33,900 bases of DNA from Candidatus Martarchaeota archaeon (GTDB taxonomy: Archaea > Micrarchaeota > Micrarchaeia > Micrarchaeales > Micrarchaeaceae). Under the pieces are notes generated by a model. It was not told the DNA's origin. It did not search any database and saw only the letters and a program-made list of their open reading frames with translations. A program made the translations under genes and the position numbers. Shown piece by piece: positions 1-30,294 of the stretch. The DNA is taken from contig JAMCYO010000041.1 of assembly GCA_023473395.1 (NCBI GenBank), positions 1-33,900 of the forward strand, in the 5' to 3' direction. Position 1 is the stretch's first letter, and each line of letters opens with the position of its first letter.

Positions 1-17
1 GTTGACATGACGGGATA

Positions 18-1103
18 ATGGAACGGGTAAGCACCGATCTTTCAATCGCTTACATAAACAAGACAGGGAAAATACTCCATCACAATGTAGACAAAGGGCT
101 TATAATAGGCGGCGCTTCCGAGGTCGGATTTGGGACAGGGAAGATTATGAAGCCCATAGAAGTCATACTTGCAGGCAGGGCGGCAAGGAGCTACCAAGGC
201 ATCGATATAGACGTGGATGGCATAGCCTTGAAAGCCGCCAGGGATTATCTGAAGGAGAATACGAGGTTCTTGGACCTTGACAACGAGGTAACCTTCCAAT
301 CAAAGATACTCAAAGGATCGGCAGATCTGAGTGAAATATTCGATAGGAGCATAGACGTCCCGTTGGCAAATGACACCTCTTTCGGAATAGGCTTTGCGCC
401 TTTTACAATAACAGAGAATCTTGTCCTTGAAACGGAAAGGATGCTCAATGGCAAGGCGTACAAGGAAAAACACCCCGAGGTTGGAGAGGATATAAAAGTA
501 ATGGGAATAAGGGATATGGAAGACATAGGCCTCACCGTGGCAATAGCCTTCGTTTCTGGAAAGGTTGCCAACAGCGAGGATTATGAAAATAAGAAAGAAG
601 AGATAACGCATGATATAAAGGAATTCGCAAAAAAGTTCACAGGCAGGGATGTTGAGGTAGTGGTGAACAATGGAGATACAAAAAACGGAAAGGTATACCT
701 GACAAAAACTGGGCTGAGCTGCGAGGCAGGAGATGACGGCTCTGTAGGGAGGGGCAACAGGGTAAACGGGCTTATAACTCCGTTCAGGAAAATGAGCCTC
801 GAGGCTGCGGCAGGCAAGAATCCCGTAAACCACATAGGAAAGATATACAATGTGTTGGCAAACGAGATAGCTTCAGACATAGTAAAATTGTACCCCCAAG
901 TAAAAGAATGCAACGTATCTATAGTATCGCAAATAGGAAGGAAAATAGACGACCCCAGGCATTTGGATATAAAGATAAGCACAGAAAAGCCCGAGGAGTT
1001 GGACAACCTGAGAAAGAAAGTGTATGACGTGGCAGAGCAGGGCCTTGACAACATCGCTTACCTTACCCAGGAAATAATCTCGGGAAAGCATACAATGTTT
1101 TAA
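18..1103 (+). CDS. metK: S-adenosylmethionine synthetase, archaeal type; 5' end outside the window and apparently frameshifted near nt 10-14
   Basis: Protein contains LHHNVDKG, PLANDTSFGIGFAP, VGEDIKVMG, AGDDGSVGRGNRVNGLITP and AAAGKNPVNHIGKIYN, typical of archaeal MAT. The N-terminal HPD region is missing from this frame. Confidence 0.93.
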   Translation: MERVSTDLSIAYINKTGKILHHNVDKGLIIGGASEVGFGTGKIMKPIEVILAGRAARSYQGIDIDVDGIALKAARDYLKENTRFLDLDNEVTFQSKILKGSADLSEIFDRSIDVPLANDTSFGIGFAPFTITENLVLETERMLNGKAYKEKHPEVGEDIKVMGIRDMEDIGLTVAIAFVSGKVANSEDYENKKEEITHDIKEFAKKFTGRDVEVVVNNGDTKNGKVYLTKTGLSCEAGDDGSVGRGNRVNGLITPFRKMSLEAAAGKNPVNHIGKIYNVLANEIASDIVKLYPQVKECNVSIVSQIGRKIDDPRHLDIKISTEKPEELDNLRKKVYDVAEQGLDNIAYLTQEIISGKHTMF

Positions 1104-1111
1104 AAAAAATA

Positions 1112-1128
1112 TGAGGGAATTTCCCTCA
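1112..1128 (-). terminator. Hairpin plus T-run terminator for the minus-strand gene at 1138-1887
   Basis: tgagggaa-t-ttccctca inverted repeat (8-bp arms). On the minus strand it is followed by a T-run (complement of the A-run at about 1102-1109). Confidence 0.6.
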
Positions 1129-1137
1129 ATATAGGAT

Positions 1138-1887
1138 TTAGTTAAAAATCCTATTCTTGCACGCAACTCCACTCGGCACCGTTGCATTTATTCCGAAGAA
1201 CTGCATGGCCTTCGCGTCCGTGCAATAGCCGCTGTCAAGACCTTGCTTAAGGTTGTTTACTGCAGTCTGGTTGATGGTATATGTATAGTTAAATGCTGGT
1301 ATAATCACGGTACCGTTGGATGAACTGTAGCTGTACCCCGATATTTGCCCGTTCGAAACCTCGGCAAGTGCGCACGGATCCCCCAAGGCTATTTCAGAAA
1401 CCGTATTTTGCATATCCGACACATTTTCGCTCTTGTTTATTATGATTGCAGGGCATGCCTCGCTCGTTAAGCCGCTGGTATTCAAGCTAGGGGTTGTTGT
1501 AATGTTTGCGTGGGCCGTTGAATTGATAGTCGTTGTTATTTGCTTAATTGGCGCATGGTTGCCGTTCAATGCAATGCCCGAAATTATGATTATTGCAGCT
1601 ATTGCAACCACGATGGGTATTAGCACCCTGCTAGCAGCCCTGCTGCCCCGTAGTACTCCTTCGTTTTGGTTTGGGGCTTGTGCTTTTTGCAACAGCCTGT
1701 AATATTTTACCTTCTTATAATGCGAATTGTCTATTGGCTCTATCATTGACATTCCTTCCAGTTCTGAAAGGTGCTGGCTTACCGTAGCCTTTGAAAGGCC
1801 AAGCGCTGCGCTTATTTCTGTTAGGTTCATATTGCCATTCTTCAGGAGGTTTAGTATCCTCTTCTTTGTTCCGAAGGTCTTTGACAT
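1138..1887 (-). CDS. Membrane-tethered winged-helix (ArsR-like) regulator: N-terminal HTH, one TM helix, Cys-containing ectodomain
   Basis: N-term KKRILNLLKNGNMNLTEISAALGLSKATVSQHLSELE is wHTH-like. TM is VLIPIVVAIAAIIIISGIAL. The C-terminal part has many N-x-S/T sequons and 4 Cys. Confidence 0.75.
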   Translation of the reverse strand: MSKTFGTKKRILNLLKNGNMNLTEISAALGLSKATVSQHLSELEGMSMIEPIDNSHYKKVKYYRLLQKAQAPNQNEGVLRGSRAASRVLIPIVVAIAAIIIISGIALNGNHAPIKQITTTINSTAHANITTTPSLNTSGLTSEACPAIIINKSENVSDMQNTVSEIALGDPCALAEVSNGQISGYSYSSSNGTVIIPAFNYTYTINQTAVNNLKQGLDSGYCTDAKAMQFFGINATVPSGVACKNRIFN

Positions 1888-2015
1888 TTTATCACAAAAA
1901 TTTATTGAAATGGTATTATATTAAGAGTTTTTATAGGATTAGGTTTTTGTTAGGTTTTTCGACGTTAGAATAAAACTTAACAGCATTGGCAATAAGTAAA
2001 AATAAACCGAAATGC

Positions 2016-2567
2016 TCAATCAACGTTTGGAACCGGGCTGCGAATTTTGGATTTTTGGGCGTTTTCCCTGGCAGTTTTGTGCGCGTATTTTTCAGTCAGG
2101 TTTTTGATTTGCTCCCTTACTATCCTTGCATCTATTTCAGTAAGAACAAACTCCCCTTTCCCACGCATCAGTTCCATAGACCTAAGCGCATCGATCTCCA
2201 TTGCCCTTTTTGCCGAATGCTCTTCCGGGAATACGCGCACATCGTTTATGCTTAGGTTAGAATCCTGCATTGAGTAGAGCCAAACCCTATAATCCGTGCC
2301 GTTAAGGTTATGGCTGAAGTCTAGTATATATTCCAAATCATTTCCATTCACAGTTATTCCTGTTTCTTCCTTCAACTCCCTGACTGCCGCAGCGAGGTTG
2401 GCTTCGCCAGCTTCAACGTGCCCTGATGGCAAACACCATTTACCTGGTTCTATGTCGTCGTCTTCTCTCCTCTTTAGGTATACCAATCCGTCTCCCGTAA
2501 ACAATGCTATGAATACTACATCGACTTCTTTAGGTTTTGAATCCGATATGCTTGATTCTGTCTCCAT
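2016..2567 (-). CDS. NUDIX hydrolase
   Basis: Nudix box GHVEAGEANLAAAVRELKEETGI matches GX5EX7REUXEEXGU. Confidence 0.9.
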   Translation of the reverse strand: METESSISDSKPKEVDVVFIALFTGDGLVYLKRREDDDIEPGKWCLPSGHVEAGEANLAAAVRELKEETGITVNGNDLEYILDFSHNLNGTDYRVWLYSMQDSNLSINDVRVFPEEHSAKRAMEIDALRSMELMRGKGEFVLTEIDARIVREQIKNLTEKYAHKTARENAQKSKIRSPVPNVD

Positions 2568-2645
2568 TTACATCAGGAAAGCGTTGACTCGTGTAAGGTA
2601 TTTAACCTTTCCATGAGGTTCGTTTATAGACGTTGCAGTGATACA

Positions 2646-3569
2646 ATGAAAAGGATGCTAGTTGCAATAGGCGGCAATGCCTTGCTTAAGAAGGGGGAGA
2701 AACCGGATTTTAAGACCCACCTAAAAAATGCCAATGATACCGCAGGAAAAATAATGGATATCCTTGCTGGAACCAATATGGAATTAGTCCTAACGCATGG
2801 CAACGGGCCGCAGGTAGGCGATGAATTCATAAGGAATGAAAGGGCAAAAAAGTATATGCCAAAACTGCCTTTGCATATACTCACAGCAGAAACACAGGCC
2901 TATATTGGCGCGATAATCTCGAATTCTTTGAACCCAATGCTTAGGGAAGCGGGAAAAGGAAATTCCGCGGTTATAATAACCAACGCGATTGTGTCTGGGA
3001 CTGATCCAGCAATCAAAAAACCCACGAAGCAGATAGGGCCTTACTACACAAAGGAACAGCTAATGCGGGAGCTCAAACTGGAAAGGTTTGATTATGTAAA
3101 AGAAAAAAACAGCTATCGCATGGTTGTACCGTCTCCTAAACCCATAAGGATAATTGAAATAGACGCAATAAAATCGATGCTGTCTGCAGGATTTTTAACG
3201 ATATGCGGGGGTGGGGGTGGCATACCTGTAGTCAAGAAAGGCAATTCTTACGTAGGCATAAACGCTGTGATAGACAAGGACGCTACAAGCGCGCTCATAG
3301 CTGAAAATATAGGCGCAAGCGAACTTGTAATCCTTACGGATACGGACTACCTGTATTCGGACTTTGATGACCAGAACAGCAGAATCCGAAGCATTACGGC
3401 CAAGGATTCGTCAAAGCTTCTTCCAAAACTTGAAGCAGGGACGATAAGGCCAAAGCTTGAAGCGTGCATGGAGTTTGTTTTAAAGACTGGAAAGCCTGCA
3501 AGAATAGGGGCATTGGAAAATGCTTATGAAGTAGCAAGGGGCAAATCAGGGACAGTTATAACCCCCTAA
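2646..3569 (+). CDS. arcC: Carbamate kinase (amino acid kinase fold)
   Basis: MKRMLVAIGGNALLKKGEKP, LTHGNGPQVGDEF, CGGGGGIPVV, VIDKDATSALIAENIGASELVILTDTDYLY, and C-terminal GTVI. ATG at 2646 preferred over the upstream 2613 start. Confidence 0.88.
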   Translation: MKRMLVAIGGNALLKKGEKPDFKTHLKNANDTAGKIMDILAGTNMELVLTHGNGPQVGDEFIRNERAKKYMPKLPLHILTAETQAYIGAIISNSLNPMLREAGKGNSAVIITNAIVSGTDPAIKKPTKQIGPYYTKEQLMRELKLERFDYVKEKNSYRMVVPSPKPIRIIEIDAIKSMLSAGFLTICGGGGGIPVVKKGNSYVGINAVIDKDATSALIAENIGASELVILTDTDYLYSDFDDQNSRIRSITAKDSSKLLPKLEAGTIRPKLEACMEFVLKTGKPARIGALENAYEVARGKSGTVITP

Positions 3570-3570
3570 T

Positions 3571-4125
3571 TCATTGTGGCAACAAGCTAAGCTTGTCGAG
3601 TTTTACAAGCTTTAGGTAGCTGAGCCTTTCTGATTTTATTATTTCCGCCTTGGAAAAGTTGGTGGCTGCGTATTTCTTCAAAAGTTCTGCTATGCCTTCT
3701 CCCGTTACTATTACTATGCCATCGGGTTTTGTTATCCTGTAAAATTCTTTGAGCTGCGATATTGACTTTTTTATGCCAAAACCCTTGAAATAATCGTATG
3801 CAAGGATAAGGCCGAACTCTTCATCAGGAAGGCCAGTGTAGCAATCCACAGACAACGCGTATCTTAATCCTTTCAGTTTTGAGGTAGAATTTATAATGGA
3901 AATTAGTTCCTTTTTCGAACGCGTCAGTACTGTTAGCTTTGATTTTTTGTTTTTATTCTGAAAATAGCGTATCGAATCCAAAACCTCTGCTTTTTCTCCA
4001 GAAATAAGCACCTGTGACTTCTTCAGATATGAAAGTTCCGAACTTGCAAGGCTTCTCATCAGTCCATAATGCAATTGTGGTTTTACCTTCTTGGCTGGTA
4101 TCTTGACTGGTATTTTTTTGTGCAT
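3571..4125 (-). CDS. Hypothetical protein, possibly a degenerate class I methyltransferase-like fold
   Basis: Complete 184-aa ORF, convergent with arcC. Contains a DEEFGLILAYDYFKGFG...FYRITKPDGIVIVTGEG stretch resembling the second half of Rossmann methyltransferases. Confidence 0.55.
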   Translation of the reverse strand: MHKKIPVKIPAKKVKPQLHYGLMRSLASSELSYLKKSQVLISGEKAEVLDSIRYFQNKNKKSKLTVLTRSKKELISIINSTSKLKGLRYALSVDCYTGLPDEEFGLILAYDYFKGFGIKKSISQLKEFYRITKPDGIVIVTGEGIAELLKKYAATNFSKAEIIKSERLSYLKLVKLDKLSLLPQ

Positions 4126-7083: not shown

Positions 7084-7581
7084 ATGCGCAATATGTCGCG
7101 GAGGGAATTCGCAATCCTTACTGCAATGTCAATAATAGGGTTGATAGCCTCAGGGATAGTACTATACGAACTTTACGTGATACACAACCCTCCGCCGTTT
7201 TGCACGATAGACGCAACGTTGGCCTCAACGCCGTTCAATTGCATGAAGGTTTTGACTAGCAGCTATTCGGACGTGTTCGGAGTTTCGCTTGATTTCCTCG
7301 CAGCATTATGGTTCATAATAAACATTGCATTTGTGTCAATCTTGACGTTTGCAGACAAGCAGTTGGCCAAGCGCATATTCTATGTGTTATTTGTATGGCG
7401 TTTTTTCGGTATAGCAATAGTGCCATACTTAATATACCTGGAATTCTTTGTAGTGCATTCGATATGCCTTTATTGCACGATAATGCACGGCGCAATAATA
7501 ATAGACTTCGTTATAGTTTCTTATTTCCTGTTTTCAAGGCATTCGAATATAAGACATACCATCTTCCAAACCACAGTATGA
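7084..7581 (+). CDS. Vitamin K epoxide reductase (VKOR) family membrane protein
   Basis: 165 aa, multi-TM. N-proximal Cys pair (PFCTIDATLASTPFNCMKVLTSSYSDVFGVSLDFLAALWF) and C-x-x-C in SICLYCTIMHG, as in VKOR. Confidence 0.85.
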   Translation: MRNMSRREFAILTAMSIIGLIASGIVLYELYVIHNPPPFCTIDATLASTPFNCMKVLTSSYSDVFGVSLDFLAALWFIINIAFVSILTFADKQLAKRIFYVLFVWRFFGIAIVPYLIYLEFFVVHSICLYCTIMHGAIIIDFVIVSYFLFSRHSNIRHTIFQTTV

Positions 7582-7850: not shown

Positions 7851-9818
7851 TTACCAGACCCCTGTTTTCGACAACTTTTGCTTTGGTTCTTTGAGCTTGC
7901 TTATTTTTCTGAAGTTAGTTTCAAAATCCTTGTGTGTTAATACCGGGACAGTTGCACGGAATTTAGCAGGGGAGTGCGGATCTATCGTTGCAAGGAGCTT
8001 TTGCGTTTCGGGCTTGGTCAGGTTCTTCCACAGCTGCGACCATGATATGAAAAACCTCTGCTCCTGCGTGAAGCCGTCTATAAGTTTTTTGTGTTCGCCC
8101 GATTTTTCCATTGCCTTATGCAATGCGTCGTATGCTATGCTTATGCCACCAAGGTCAGCGATATTTTCACCTAGGGTAAGTTTGCCGTTTACTTTTATTC
8201 CTGGCATTATTTCCAAGCTGCCGTAAAGTTTTTCCACGCCTTTTGCCTTTGCCTCAAAGTTTCTTCTGTCGTTTTTAGTCCACCATTCTTTGAGGTTGCC
8301 ATATTTGTCGTACTTGCTTCCTTGGTCATCAAACCCGTGCGTGAGTTCGTGGCCTATTACGCCCCCTATTGCCGCATAGTTCACGGCATTGTCAAGATTT
8401 TCGTCAAAGAATGGAGGCTGTAGTATTCCTGCAGGTATTACTATTTCGTTCATCGACGGGTCGTAGTAGGCGTTTACCGTTGGCGCGGTCATTCCCCATT
8501 CCGACTTATCAACCTTTTTGCCTATCCTTTTTATGTCCCTTTCAAAATCGAAGCTTATAGACCTCATTATATTTCCAACGAGATCGTTCGGGTCTATTTT
8601 GAGCCTGGAATAATCCCTTGGCTTCTTTGGATATCCTATCTTCACATTTATTGAATCAAGCTTTTCCAAAGCCTTTATTTTGGTTTCTTCCGTCATCCAC
8701 TTCGAATGCTTGAGCCTTTCCCTAAAAGCGACCCTTATGTCTGAAACAAGGCTTTCGGCCATATGCATGGATTTGTCGCCGAAATTATGCTTTGCATAGA
8801 TGCTTCCCAAGGCTTCGCCAACGCACATGTTTACAAGGGAAACACCCCTTTTCCACCTAGGCCGGGGCTTGGATTGCCCTTGGAGCGTTTTATTGAAAAA
8901 GCCAAACATCAACTTGTATATTTCTTCATGCAGGCTATGGCCATAAACCATTAGAACGTTCCATGCAATATACGCTTTTATGGAATCAATGCTTTCGGTT
9001 TTAAGCATGTTTTCAAGGCGCTTGAAAAATTCCGGCTGGCCAACTATGGCGTAGCTTAAACGCTTTGCCCCCATGCCTTTGAAAAATGTTTCGAAATCCA
9101 AACCCTTGTATGTTTCAATTAGCTTTGAATAGCTGAATTTGTTGTAGTTTTTTATGTCGTCCCTTAGTTCGGCCCTGCTCCTTGAAAATCTTGCCAATTT
9201 GGTTTCGATCCTTAGGATTTCCTCTGCATCCTTTGAAGCCTGCCCGGGATTTGCGCCGTAAAGCAGGAATAACTTTTTTAGGAATTCGGAGTATTTCTTC
9301 CTTACCTCTGCAAATTTCTCGTTTAGGTAATACTCCCTGTCAGGCAAGCCTAGGCCGCCCTGCCAAAGGTAAACAGCATAGGTAGACGAATCCATAAGGT
9401 CAGGGCTTACGTGAAAGCTGAAAAATGGGCTAACGCCGATTGTTGAGAGATTGGCTAGCAGTTTTGTCAGCTCTTTCTTTGAAGCCATATCCCTTACCTT
9501 TTTTATAATTGGGTTTATGGGCTTGAATTCTAGCTTCTCTAGCAAGGTTGTGTTCATCAGGGATTTATACAGGTCCCCGATTTTTTGCTCTTCTGGGCTT
9601 CTGGTGGCCTTTTCGGAGCATTTTGTAACTATTGATTTTAGCGTTTTTGTGTTTTTGTCGTAAAGTTCTTCGAAGGAACCTATACGGCTCTTGTCTTCCG
9701 GGATTTTCTTGCGCTTTAGCCAATTGCCGCATGAATATGAATAAAAGTCCGCAAACGGGTCTACCGACCGATCCATGCTTCTTATGGAGAATCCTATGCT
9801 TTCCTTGCTAGTTGCCAT
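7851..9818 (-). CDS. M13 family metallopeptidase (neprilysin/PepO-like)
   Basis: VIGHELTHGFDDQGSKYD (HExxH), ENIADLGGISIAYDA, NAYYDPSMNEIVIPAGILQPPFFD. Confidence 0.92.
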   Translation of the reverse strand: MATSKESIGFSIRSMDRSVDPFADFYSYSCGNWLKRKKIPEDKSRIGSFEELYDKNTKTLKSIVTKCSEKATRSPEEQKIGDLYKSLMNTTLLEKLEFKPINPIIKKVRDMASKKELTKLLANLSTIGVSPFFSFHVSPDLMDSSTYAVYLWQGGLGLPDREYYLNEKFAEVRKKYSEFLKKLFLLYGANPGQASKDAEEILRIETKLARFSRSRAELRDDIKNYNKFSYSKLIETYKGLDFETFFKGMGAKRLSYAIVGQPEFFKRLENMLKTESIDSIKAYIAWNVLMVYGHSLHEEIYKLMFGFFNKTLQGQSKPRPRWKRGVSLVNMCVGEALGSIYAKHNFGDKSMHMAESLVSDIRVAFRERLKHSKWMTEETKIKALEKLDSINVKIGYPKKPRDYSRLKIDPNDLVGNIMRSISFDFERDIKRIGKKVDKSEWGMTAPTVNAYYDPSMNEIVIPAGILQPPFFDENLDNAVNYAAIGGVIGHELTHGFDDQGSKYDKYGNLKEWWTKNDRRNFEAKAKGVEKLYGSLEIMPGIKVNGKLTLGENIADLGGISIAYDALHKAMEKSGEHKKLIDGFTQEQRFFISWSQLWKNLTKPETQKLLATIDPHSPAKFRATVPVLTHKDFETNFRKISKLKEPKQKLSKTGVW

Positions 9819-9830
9819 GATTGCACCACG

Positions 9831-10004
9831 TCAACCCATGCCGCACCTTTCCAGATGCTGGGGTTCGCTTTTTTCATCCTTCCTTAATATTTGACTGCCG
9901 TTTTCCTTTGAAATGATATAATCGTTAATTCCGTTGCTAGATGCTTCAAGAGCCTTTCCCAAATCAGAAGTTTGTTCTTTCTTGCATGGTTTCTGCGATT
10001 CCAT
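9831..10004 (-). CDS. Small hypothetical protein (57 aa), below the ORF-track cutoff
   Basis: Open frame MESQKPCKKEQTSDLGKALEASSNGINDYIISKENGSQILRKDEKSEPQHLERCGMG in the gap between the M13 gene and rfcS. Confidence 0.35.
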   Translation of the reverse strand: MESQKPCKKEQTSDLGKALEASSNGINDYIISKENGSQILRKDEKSEPQHLERCGMG

Positions 10005-10139: not shown

Positions 10140-11114
10140 TTGGTGATTATTGTGCCGAATCTTGATTTGCCTTGGACGGAGAAATACAGGCCTGAAAGCT
10201 TGGATGAGGTAATAGGCCAAAAACCCATAGTGGAAAGGCTAAAATCTTTCATAAAAGGGAGCAATTTCCCAAACATGATATTCGCAGGCAGCGCAGGAAT
10301 AGGAAAGACGACCTGTGCCATAGCCCTTGCAAAAGACCTTTACGGCGACGATTTCTCCGGTGCCTTCAAGGAGCTCAATGCGAGCGACGCAAGGGGAATA
10401 GACGTTATAAGGGGAGAGGTTAAGAACTTCGCAAGGACCATGTCCATAGCCAAGGTACCTGTGAAGATAATATTCCTGGACGAGGCCGATTCGCTGACAG
10501 CAGATGCACAGCACGCGCTTAGAAGAACCATGGAGAAATACTCATCGGAAACCAGGTTTATACTCAGCGCCAACTACGCGAGCAAGATAATTGAGCCTAT
10601 ACAGAGCAGGTGCGTAGTGTTCAGGTTCAAGCAGCTGACATCGGCTGACATGCGCAGCTATGTGGAAAGGATTGCCAAGGAGGAAGGCTTGGAAATGGAC
10701 GACAAAGCGATAGAGGCATTGGTGTACGTCGGCGACGGGGACATGAGAAAGCTTACTAACGTGCTCCAGAGCGCAGCCATGTTCTCCAAGAAGGTAACGG
10801 AGTCTGAAGTTTACAACGTAGCTTCAAGGGCGCGCCCTACCGAAATAATATCCATGCTCAAATACAGCATAGAGGGCAACTTCGACAGGGCAAGAGAGGA
10901 GCTTGACACCCTTATGCTCAAGCACGGCCTCAGCGCTGAAGACATACTGACGCAGTGTTATAGGGAAATACAGGGGATAAATATAGACGAAAGGGCAAAG
11001 CTGAAGACCATAAGCTACATAGGCGAATGCAACTTCAGGGTGGTAGAAGGCGCAAACGAGCGCATACAGCTCGAGGCGTTCCTTGCAAACCTGGCATTGA
11101 TATCCAAGGGTTGA
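10140..11114 (+). CDS. rfcS: Replication factor C small subunit
   Basis: PWTEKYRPESLDEVIGQ, AGSAGIGKTT (Walker A), IIFLDEADSLT (Walker B), ILSANYASKIIEPIQSRC. No intein. Confidence 0.95.
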   Translation: MVIIVPNLDLPWTEKYRPESLDEVIGQKPIVERLKSFIKGSNFPNMIFAGSAGIGKTTCAIALAKDLYGDDFSGAFKELNASDARGIDVIRGEVKNFARTMSIAKVPVKIIFLDEADSLTADAQHALRRTMEKYSSETRFILSANYASKIIEPIQSRCVVFRFKQLTSADMRSYVERIAKEEGLEMDDKAIEALVYVGDGDMRKLTNVLQSAAMFSKKVTESEVYNVASRARPTEIISMLKYSIEGNFDRAREELDTLMLKHGLSAEDILTQCYREIQGINIDERAKLKTISYIGECNFRVVEGANERIQLEAFLANLALISKG

Positions 11115-16129: not shown

Positions 16130-16894
16130 TTGATAAAAGGAATGCTTTTTTACGAACCTGAAAAGCTCGATGATATAAAAGGAAACGAGTCGGCGATAGC
16201 CGAGCTCAGGCGCTTTGCCATGTCATTCAAGCTTGGCAAATACGAAAGGCCGCTGCTTGTATACGGGCCCACAGGGATCGGAAAAAGCTCCGCAGTAAGG
16301 ATGCTTGCAAAGGAAAACGGCTGGAACGTCATAGAACTGAATGCGAGCGATTACAGAGACAAGGAAAGCATAAGCAAGCTTCTCATGGCGGCATCGCAGT
16401 CCAGGGGGCTTTTCGGAGGCAGGAATATGGTACTGCTTGACGAGGTGGACGAGCTCAGCGCAAGGTTCGACAAGGGTGCCTCTTCAGCGATAACGGAGCT
16501 CATAACGAAGTCCAAAAACCCGATAATAATGATTGCGAACGACATGTGGGACCAGAAGATTGCATTTCTAAGGAATTCCACCACCCCGGTTGAGTTCAAG
16601 AGGCCGAAGCAGTTTGTGGTAGAGGAGGTATTGAAAGGCGTTGCCAGCGAGGCGGGAATAACTCCAAACGCCGACGTGATAACCGCAATCGCAAGGCGCT
16701 CCGGAGGCGATATAAGGAGCGCCATAAGCGACATGCTTATACTCGGAAATTCCCCTGACGAAGCCCTGGATTACATAGGGCTTAGGGACAAGAAGGGCTA
16801 CATATTCGAGACCTTGGATAGGATATTTCTTTCTAACACCATAGCCGCGCCGCTAAGGGCGATCACAAATTCTTATACTCGGAAATGCCCCTGA
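16130..16894 (+). pseudogene. rfcL: Replication factor C large subunit, N-terminal part, interrupted by a frameshifting tandem duplication
   Basis: LLVYGPTGIGKSS, NMVLLDEVDELS, RRSGGDIRSAISDM. Frame ends in YTRKCP immediately after the duplication junction. Confidence 0.88.
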
Positions 16895-17009
16895 CGAAGC
16901 CCTGGATTACATAGGGCTTAGGGACAAGAAGGGCTACATATTCGAGACCTTGGATAGGATATTTCTTTCTAACACCATAGCCGCGCCGCTAAGGGCGATC
17001 ACAAATTCT
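16736..17009 (+). repeat. 136-bp direct tandem duplication, one mismatch (t16751/g16887)
   Basis: cttatactcggaaat[t/g]cccctgacgaagcc...gcgatcacaaattct occurs twice with a 136-nt offset. Confidence 0.97.
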
Positions 17010-17486
17010 GAAGACACTGGAGACATGCTGATAAAGTGGATAGACCAGAACATAACGAAACGCTACACGTACATTGCGGACATAGCAGTAGCCTACGAGA
17101 ACCTGGCCGATGCGACGGTCTATTACACCAGGGCGATAAGGTCGCAATATTACATATACTGGAGGTATATGAACGTAATGATGTCCAGCGGCGTAGCGCT
17201 TTCGAAGAGTTCATACCCACAGGTAAAGCTTAGATACGAATTTCCGAAAACGATAAAGGAGCTGAGCGCGAGCAAGGGAGACAGGTCTTCGTCAACAGAG
17301 ATTGCGAAGCTTATGCAGAAACGCATACATGAGAGCATTTTCACCATAAAGGAGCATTACATTCCAATGCTCAAAGAGATGCTCAAGGGTTCCAGCGAGG
17401 AGGAAATAGAGGGCTTCCTTGAAAGCAGGTACGGCCTCGAGCGCAAGCAGATAGATTACATCATGGGAAAACAGGTCAAGCGCTGA
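16950..17486 (+). pseudogene. rfcL: Replication factor C large subunit, C-terminal part
   Basis: MDRIFLSNTIAAPLRAITNSEDTGDMLIKWIDQN...; removing one 136-bp copy restores one continuous frame with the upstream ORF. Confidence 0.85.
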
Positions 17487-20467: not shown

Positions 20468-20737
20468 CTATATCCTTGAAGTTTTTGAATGCCTGCTTGA
20501 CGTTGTTCCCTGCTTGACGTTGTTCAACAGGACTTCGGGCTTTTCTTCCAGCGCTATGAAAGCCCCGGGAATCCCCGCTTTGGCATTGTGGTAAAGTATC
20601 TCGAACGAGAGCAGAGTCTTGCCTGCGCCAGGGCCTCCTGCTATTATGGTCTGGTTATATTCAGGAACGCCGCCGTCTAACATCGAATCCAGACCGCTAA
20701 CCCCCGTTTTTATCCTGTTAATATCATCCATTGTCAT
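20468..20737 (-). pseudogene. KaiC/RAD55-like ATPase, N-terminal part, frameshifted
   Basis: KTGVSGLDSMLDGGVPEYNQTIIAGGPGAGKTLLSFEILYHNA...FIALEEKPEVLLNNVKQ, then frame loss. Confidence 0.85.
20491..20524 (-). repeat. 17-bp tandem duplication in the KaiC-like gene
   Basis: gcctgcttgacgttgtt (20491-20507) followed by ccctgcttgacgttgtt (20508-20524). Confidence 0.95.
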
Positions 20738-28690: not shown

Positions 28691-29045
28691 TCTTAGCACC
28701 TGCTGCCGCGGCTTCGGCCCTTCTTGAAGAATTCATATGCACCCCAAGAATAGCCACCTTATAGCCTATGTTTGCTAGAAGGAAAAGCAGTATTATTTCT
28801 ATTATGTAAAGGAAGTCCTGATTTGACGGAAGGTGCTGCCCTATGGCTTCGCTTACCGCAGAAGATATTGCCTGTACGGTTGCATTGTTCTGCGAAGCGG
28901 AAACCGCAACTTGGGGCGATGCAGCCTGCGCTTTTATGCTGTCGTACAATCCGTAACCGAAATATAGGGTCACGAGCAGAATGGCTAGGCCCAATATAAA
29001 TACGGCATAACCCAAAGCTTTTTCAGATTGCATTCCATCACTCAC
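28674..29045 (-). CDS. Small membrane protein between gatD and gatE
   Basis: 123 aa with two hydrophobic segments (AVFILGLAILLVTLYFGYGLY; FLYIIEIILLFLLANIGYKVAIL). Overlaps both neighbouring genes by a few nt. Confidence 0.65.
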   Translation of the reverse strand: MSDGMQSEKALGYAVFILGLAILLVTLYFGYGLYDSIKAQAASPQVAVSASQNNATVQAISSAVSEAIGQHLPSNQDFLYIIEIILLFLLANIGYKVAILGVHMNSSRRAEAAAAGAKNAKRQ

Positions 29046-30226
29046 TCCAAAAATTCCTCGTATAGGCTCCTGTCCTTCAGCTCGCCCGCAACATTCTTAG
29101 AAAGCATCCTTTTTGCGTCTGCCGATTTGAAGTTTCCAAGTAGCCAGCCCAATTTGACGTATGCAGTTTCGGGCAGCATATCCTCGCAGTATACAACCCC
29201 TGAACCGCTCAAGAGCCTGAGATTCCTGTAGACATTAGGGTTGACCCTTCCGTATAGGCATTGGGAGGTCATGCCAACTATTACGCCCTTTTCAACCGCT
29301 TTTTTTATCTCCGGAAGCCATGAATAACCCTCGTGTTCGGTAGATACGGGCGTATGGCCCAGCCCGGTGCCTTCTATTATTATGCCCTTGTAGCCTTTCT
29401 CAGCGTAATGGCTTATTATTTCCGGATCCGAATTTGGGTAAGCTTTAATCAGCGCCACTTTTTTATCGAAGCCGGTTTTTAGCGCTGCCTGCTTTTCTCC
29501 ATTTAGCTTTCTGTAGTTTGATTTGCCGTATTTTATTTCTCCCTTGTACGAGACTGTAGCTATATATTCCGAATTTATGGGCCTGAAAGCATCCCTTCTT
29601 GAGGTGTGCATCTTCCTTGCCCTTGTTCCAAGTATAAAACCGCATTCGTCATCGGACGAATTTTTATGCATGCAGATTCCCACTTCCGCTATGTCTGACT
29701 TTGCCGCGAGCACAACAGAGCAATAAAGGTTCATGAACGCGTCGGAAGAACCCCTGTCGCTGCTCCTCTGCGCTCCGGTCAGCACAACAGGCATTCCAAT
29801 CCCGTTCAGCATGAATGAGAGCGCAGCAGAAGCATAATGCATAGTGTCGGTGCCTATTGTCACGACAACGCCCCTAAATCCCTCCTTGCGCGCTTCGGCT
29901 ACGCGCTCCGCTATTTTCTGCCATTCATGGTATGACATGTCCTCGCTCGATATGCTGAACAATGGCTCCACTTCAATGTCTGCAATGCCAGCGAGTTCAG
30001 GCACTTCATAGAGCAGCTCCTCGGGCTTGAGCAGCATGTAGACCCCGCCGGTTTTGTAGTCGAGCTTGCTCCCTATCGTGCCTCCTGTGTAGATAAGCTT
30101 TACCTTGGGCAGCGACTTTGTTTTTGGCAGCTCAGCCTTTGGAAATTCGTGTGATGGAACGCCCTTGCCCAGCTTTGTTATTTTTGAGCCTTCAAAAGAT
30201 ATGCCTATGTTGTAGCCGTTCTTCAT
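29042..30226 (-). pseudogene. gatD: Glutamyl-tRNA(Gln) amidotransferase subunit D, main part
   Basis: VKLIYTGGTIGSKLDYKTGGV, VVVTIGTDTMHYASAALSFML, GTGLGHTP, TSQCLYGRVN (asparaginase-like). Confidence 0.9.
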
Positions 30227-30294
30227 TTTCAGTATTATTATATCATCGGAATTTGCTTCGTTTCAGTATTATTATATCATCGGAATTTGCTTCG
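30227..30294 (-). repeat. 34-bp perfect tandem duplication in gatD
   Basis: tttcagtattattatatcatcggaatttgcttcg present twice back to back (30227-30260 and 30261-30294). Confidence 0.97.

Follow-up and report, generated by a model that had tools for sequence, protein, structure and literature searches.

The window, 33,900 nucleotides long, is the whole of contig C28 of the metagenome-assembled genome (MAG) G000, an assembly of 665,741 bases in 41 contigs that is 79.5% complete; its genus also includes Ca. Micrarchaeum sp. A_DKE. The contig carries rfcL, the gene for the large subunit of the RFC clamp loader, in two fragments that meet at a 136-bp tandem doubling. The gene for the small subunit lies intact upstream.

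10140..11114, + strand: RFC small subunit, intact, on the same contig (NF001679, 466 bits against a cut-off of 303)
16142..16894, + strand: rfcL 5' fragment with the AAA+ domain, 250 aa by translation (NF003229 positions 11-259)
16736..16871, + strand: copy 1 of the 136-bp doubling (TRF, repeat finder), in which T at 16751 codes Ser
16872..17007, + strand: copy 2 of the 136-bp doubling (TRF, repeat finder), in which G at 16887 codes Ala
16872..17486, + strand: 3' fragment of rfcL, which translates in the native frame (NF003229 positions 224-411)

Two repeat searches agree on the structure of the doubling. Both TRF and the repeat finder recovered a two-copy array at 16736-17009 with a period of 136 and a single mismatch, as the initial annotation had reported. 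The copies lie head to tail and are identical at 135 of 136 positions, differing at T16751/G16887, and the 'CT' at 17008-17009 is a 2-bp identity common to both borders. A repeat of this length cannot have arisen by chance, and a search across the genome found no occurrence of the 136-bp sequence outside the rfcL doubling. At the mismatch, the Ala of copy 2 matches six of seven congeners and the Ser of copy 1 matches one of the seven, as would be expected from strain variation or a base error.

The doubling shifts the reading frame of rfcL. Translations of both frames bear out a frame shift through the second copy, as the text of the initial annotation stated, although its title had called the break 'in frame'. 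The frame at 16142-16894 terminates in ...AITNSYTRKCP*, 23 bases beyond the copy junction, with its last few codons outside the native frame. Translation from 16872 reads LILGNAPDEA...AITNSEDTGDMLIKWIDQN... and stays open through to 17486. The same ~45 residues are encoded by both copies. The only early start-like codons of the 3' fragment are TTG 16950 and ATG 17025; position 16950 had been read as an ATG, and the first in-frame ATG downstream of it is the one at 17025.

Removing one copy yields an ordinary RFC large subunit, as had been predicted. The fragments align to successive stretches of NCBIfam NF003229, scoring 202 and 118 bits separately, and the gene with a single copy gives one full-length match of 312 bits (curated cut-off 280) over positions 11-411 of 413. 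Its AAA+ core is recognized by PF00004 at 8e-13, and its translation contains GPTGIGKSS and LLDEVDE as Walker A and B motifs. At 402 aa, the single-copy product is a typical full-length member of the archaeal RFC large subunits (NF003229, PRK04195), 77-79% identical to those of six of the seven congeners; it departs from them only by the apparent frameshift, which occurs in no relative. A check of rfcL in sister genomes, proposed with the initial annotation, found the gene unbroken in all 40 relatives searched among genomes of the order, including the seven congeners at 59-79% identity, and the duplication in none of them. The flanks on both sides of the doubling are collinear with congener rfcL. 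Because the small subunit is intact, a complete clamp loader is expected.

These observations bear directly on a further proposal of the initial annotation, that the clamp-loader large subunit is genuinely split and its C-terminal half translated separately by reinitiation at 16950. The 3' half is indeed open for 178 codons from that position, yet the codon there is not an ATG and the first ATG lies beyond the second copy. The gene is split in none of the 40 relatives, a split product would have ~45 residues coded twice, and the upstream fragment stops shortly after the junction, as a random frameshift would. Moreover, the copies are near-identical, so the break is too young for a fixed arrangement. 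We regard a split subunit as exceedingly improbable.

Doublings across the assembly and its relatives

The rfcL doubling is one of many in this assembly. We scanned all contigs (665,741 bases) for head-to-tail copies of at least 95% identity with periods of 15-3000, which returned ten doublings of 152, 136, 99, 70, 45, 34, 20, 18, 17 and 15 bp. lysS is frameshifted by an eleventh, whose 17-bp copies differ by a 1-bp indel. The 70-bp doubling frameshifts tyrS (NF006330, 364 bits). Two further doublings lie in the window contig, and three stand out on other contigs:

20492..20525, - strand: second doubling in the window contig, 17 bp x 2, perfect, frameshifting a KaiC-like ATPase gene
30227..30294, - strand: third doubling in the window contig, 34 bp x 2, perfect, frameshifting gatD (Glu-tRNA(Gln) amidotransferase subunit D)
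Contig C21 (L065), 7135-7335: 99-bp in-frame doubling in CDC48, repeating 33 residues that include the Walker A motif
Contig C21 (L065), 9809-9898: 45-bp in-frame doubling in EF-1A, repeating 15 residues (+15 aa)
Contig C17 (L061), 3333-3636: 152-bp doubling with 3 mismatches

The open reading frame listed at 29042-30226 is only the 3' part of gatD. On C17, the 152-bp doubling runs from the last part of a membrane-protein ORF into the beginning of an arginine-deiminase-like gene.

Comparison with congeners places the anomaly in this assembly. In the complete genome of the congener G002, the indispensable genes are continuous and single-copy: the EF-1A and CDC48 orthologues are without precisely the segment repeated here, and tyrS, gatD and lysS run uninterrupted, as does the KaiC-like gene. 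As a control we scanned the whole of G002 (918 kb once N were excluded, with periods up to 1500) and three other congeneric MAGs, sampling 150-180 kb from each, for a total of 1.40 Mb from four congeners with N excluded. Doublings of at least 30 bp number six in G000 and none in the 1.40 Mb of control sequence (one-sided binomial p about 0.001); those of at least 15 bp number ten and two, respectively (one-sided binomial p about 0.0004). Rates of 9-14 bp doublings are roughly alike in controls and G000, and these were left out of the counts. The excess of longer doublings over the controls thus belongs to this assembly.

Could the doublings be real? A recent tandem duplication may have knocked out rfcL in some or all cells, in a lineage undergoing a burst of short tandem duplications. 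As in a young duplication, the copies adjoin without a gap and are almost identical, and the genome does hold an excess of such doublings. A recent lesion, which the initial annotation had offered for rfcL, would then be one of many: rfcL, tyrS, lysS, gatD, EF-1A and CDC48 would have to be damaged or lost simultaneously in a small-genome archaeon, and a search for a second intact rfcL elsewhere in this 79.5%-complete MAG found none. Slippage usually leaves microhomology. Here, microhomology at the doubling borders is at chance level: shared bases average 0.6 over the ten doublings, against about 0.67 expected for blunt random joins. Because it would need at least six indispensable genes to be hit recently, together and by one rare route, a real lesion is disfavoured, and we judge it unlikely. 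A more specific version, in which the lineage underwent a real burst of short, blunt tandem duplications and its broken essential genes survived through mixed genotypes or complementation by a host or partner, appears very unlikely.

Unmerged contig ends

Contig ends in the same assembly overlap without having been merged. Eight such overlaps measure 67, 127, 127, 182, 187, 187, 256 and 639 bp, and three more, of 126-127 bp, lie within 17 bases of a contig end. All eleven show 0-3% mismatches, and five are 126-127 bp long, a recurrence that suggests a k=127 graph. One of them involves the window itself:

9..135: unmerged overlap of 127 bp, with 1 mismatch, between the window contig at its 5' end and the end of C21

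In length and mismatch rate, these end overlaps resemble the doublings. Among the sampled 5' ends of the control MAGs we found no contig-end overlaps, a comparison with little power.

Origin of the rfcL doubling

On the sequence evidence, the rfcL doubling is very probably an artefact of short-read metagenome assembly. Two pieces of assembled sequence with an end overlap of ~136 bp, differing there by one strain SNP or base error, would have been joined end to end without the overlap being collapsed. The overlap would then have been written twice, making rfcL appear frameshifted, while the organism itself most likely carries one continuous gene for an ordinary RFC large subunit. The flanks of the doubling are correct, similar doublings recur irrespective of gene function and are rare in relatives, and contig ends remain unmerged. 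From this we infer that an overlap-joining step gave rise to the doublings. Among the three readings put forward in the initial annotation, the join of overlapping contig ends is thus the one that gained strong support, from about ten more doublings, several of them in essential genes, and from the unmerged ends. The rfcL doubling is almost certainly not a real biological feature.

Errors of this kind have precedent. A guide to genome curation (Genome Res. 2020, PMC7111523) describes assemblers that keep overlaps about as long as the largest k-mer at the ends of scaffolds, and scaffolders that duplicate overlapping flanks, for which the correction is to remove the duplicate. The likeness lies in overlapping flank sequence written twice and in end overlaps left in place. 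The cases differ in that Ns separate the duplicated flanks there and none lie between the copies here, and in that the doublings here range in length between 15 and 152 bp and sometimes contain mismatches. The assembly has three gaps of exactly 10 N each; checking their flanks revealed no overlap across any of the three, so the doublings are not of the N-gap type described in that paper. Doublings of 15-34 bp are shorter than the usual k, and more than one error process may therefore be involved.

Alternatively, the doubling could have arisen in vitro, with chimeric molecules from library preparation or amplification giving true junction reads that the assembler followed. Chimeras would account for doublings of any length, including those of 15-20 bp, without Ns. 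Taken alone, they leave unexplained why contig ends carry unmerged overlaps of a similar kind, and we hold this account of the rfcL doubling to be highly improbable.

Reading the doublings as an assembly artefact carries a warning: broken genes in this MAG should not be read as biology. About ten genes or gene borders look broken or lengthened, most likely for technical reasons, and those affected include tyrS, EF-1A, rfcL and lysS, universal genes on which trees and completeness estimates draw. The caution matters for a symbiotic, small-genome archaeon, a setting in which drafts of this sort are often the basis for inferring gene loss. Errors of this kind can be picked up without reads by a simple scan for near-exact tandem doublings and for contig ends that overlap.

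The unmerged end overlaps also suggest that several contigs of the MAG are adjacent. The overlapping pairs include C1/C17 (256 bp), C26/C38 (187 bp) and C4/C25 (639 bp).
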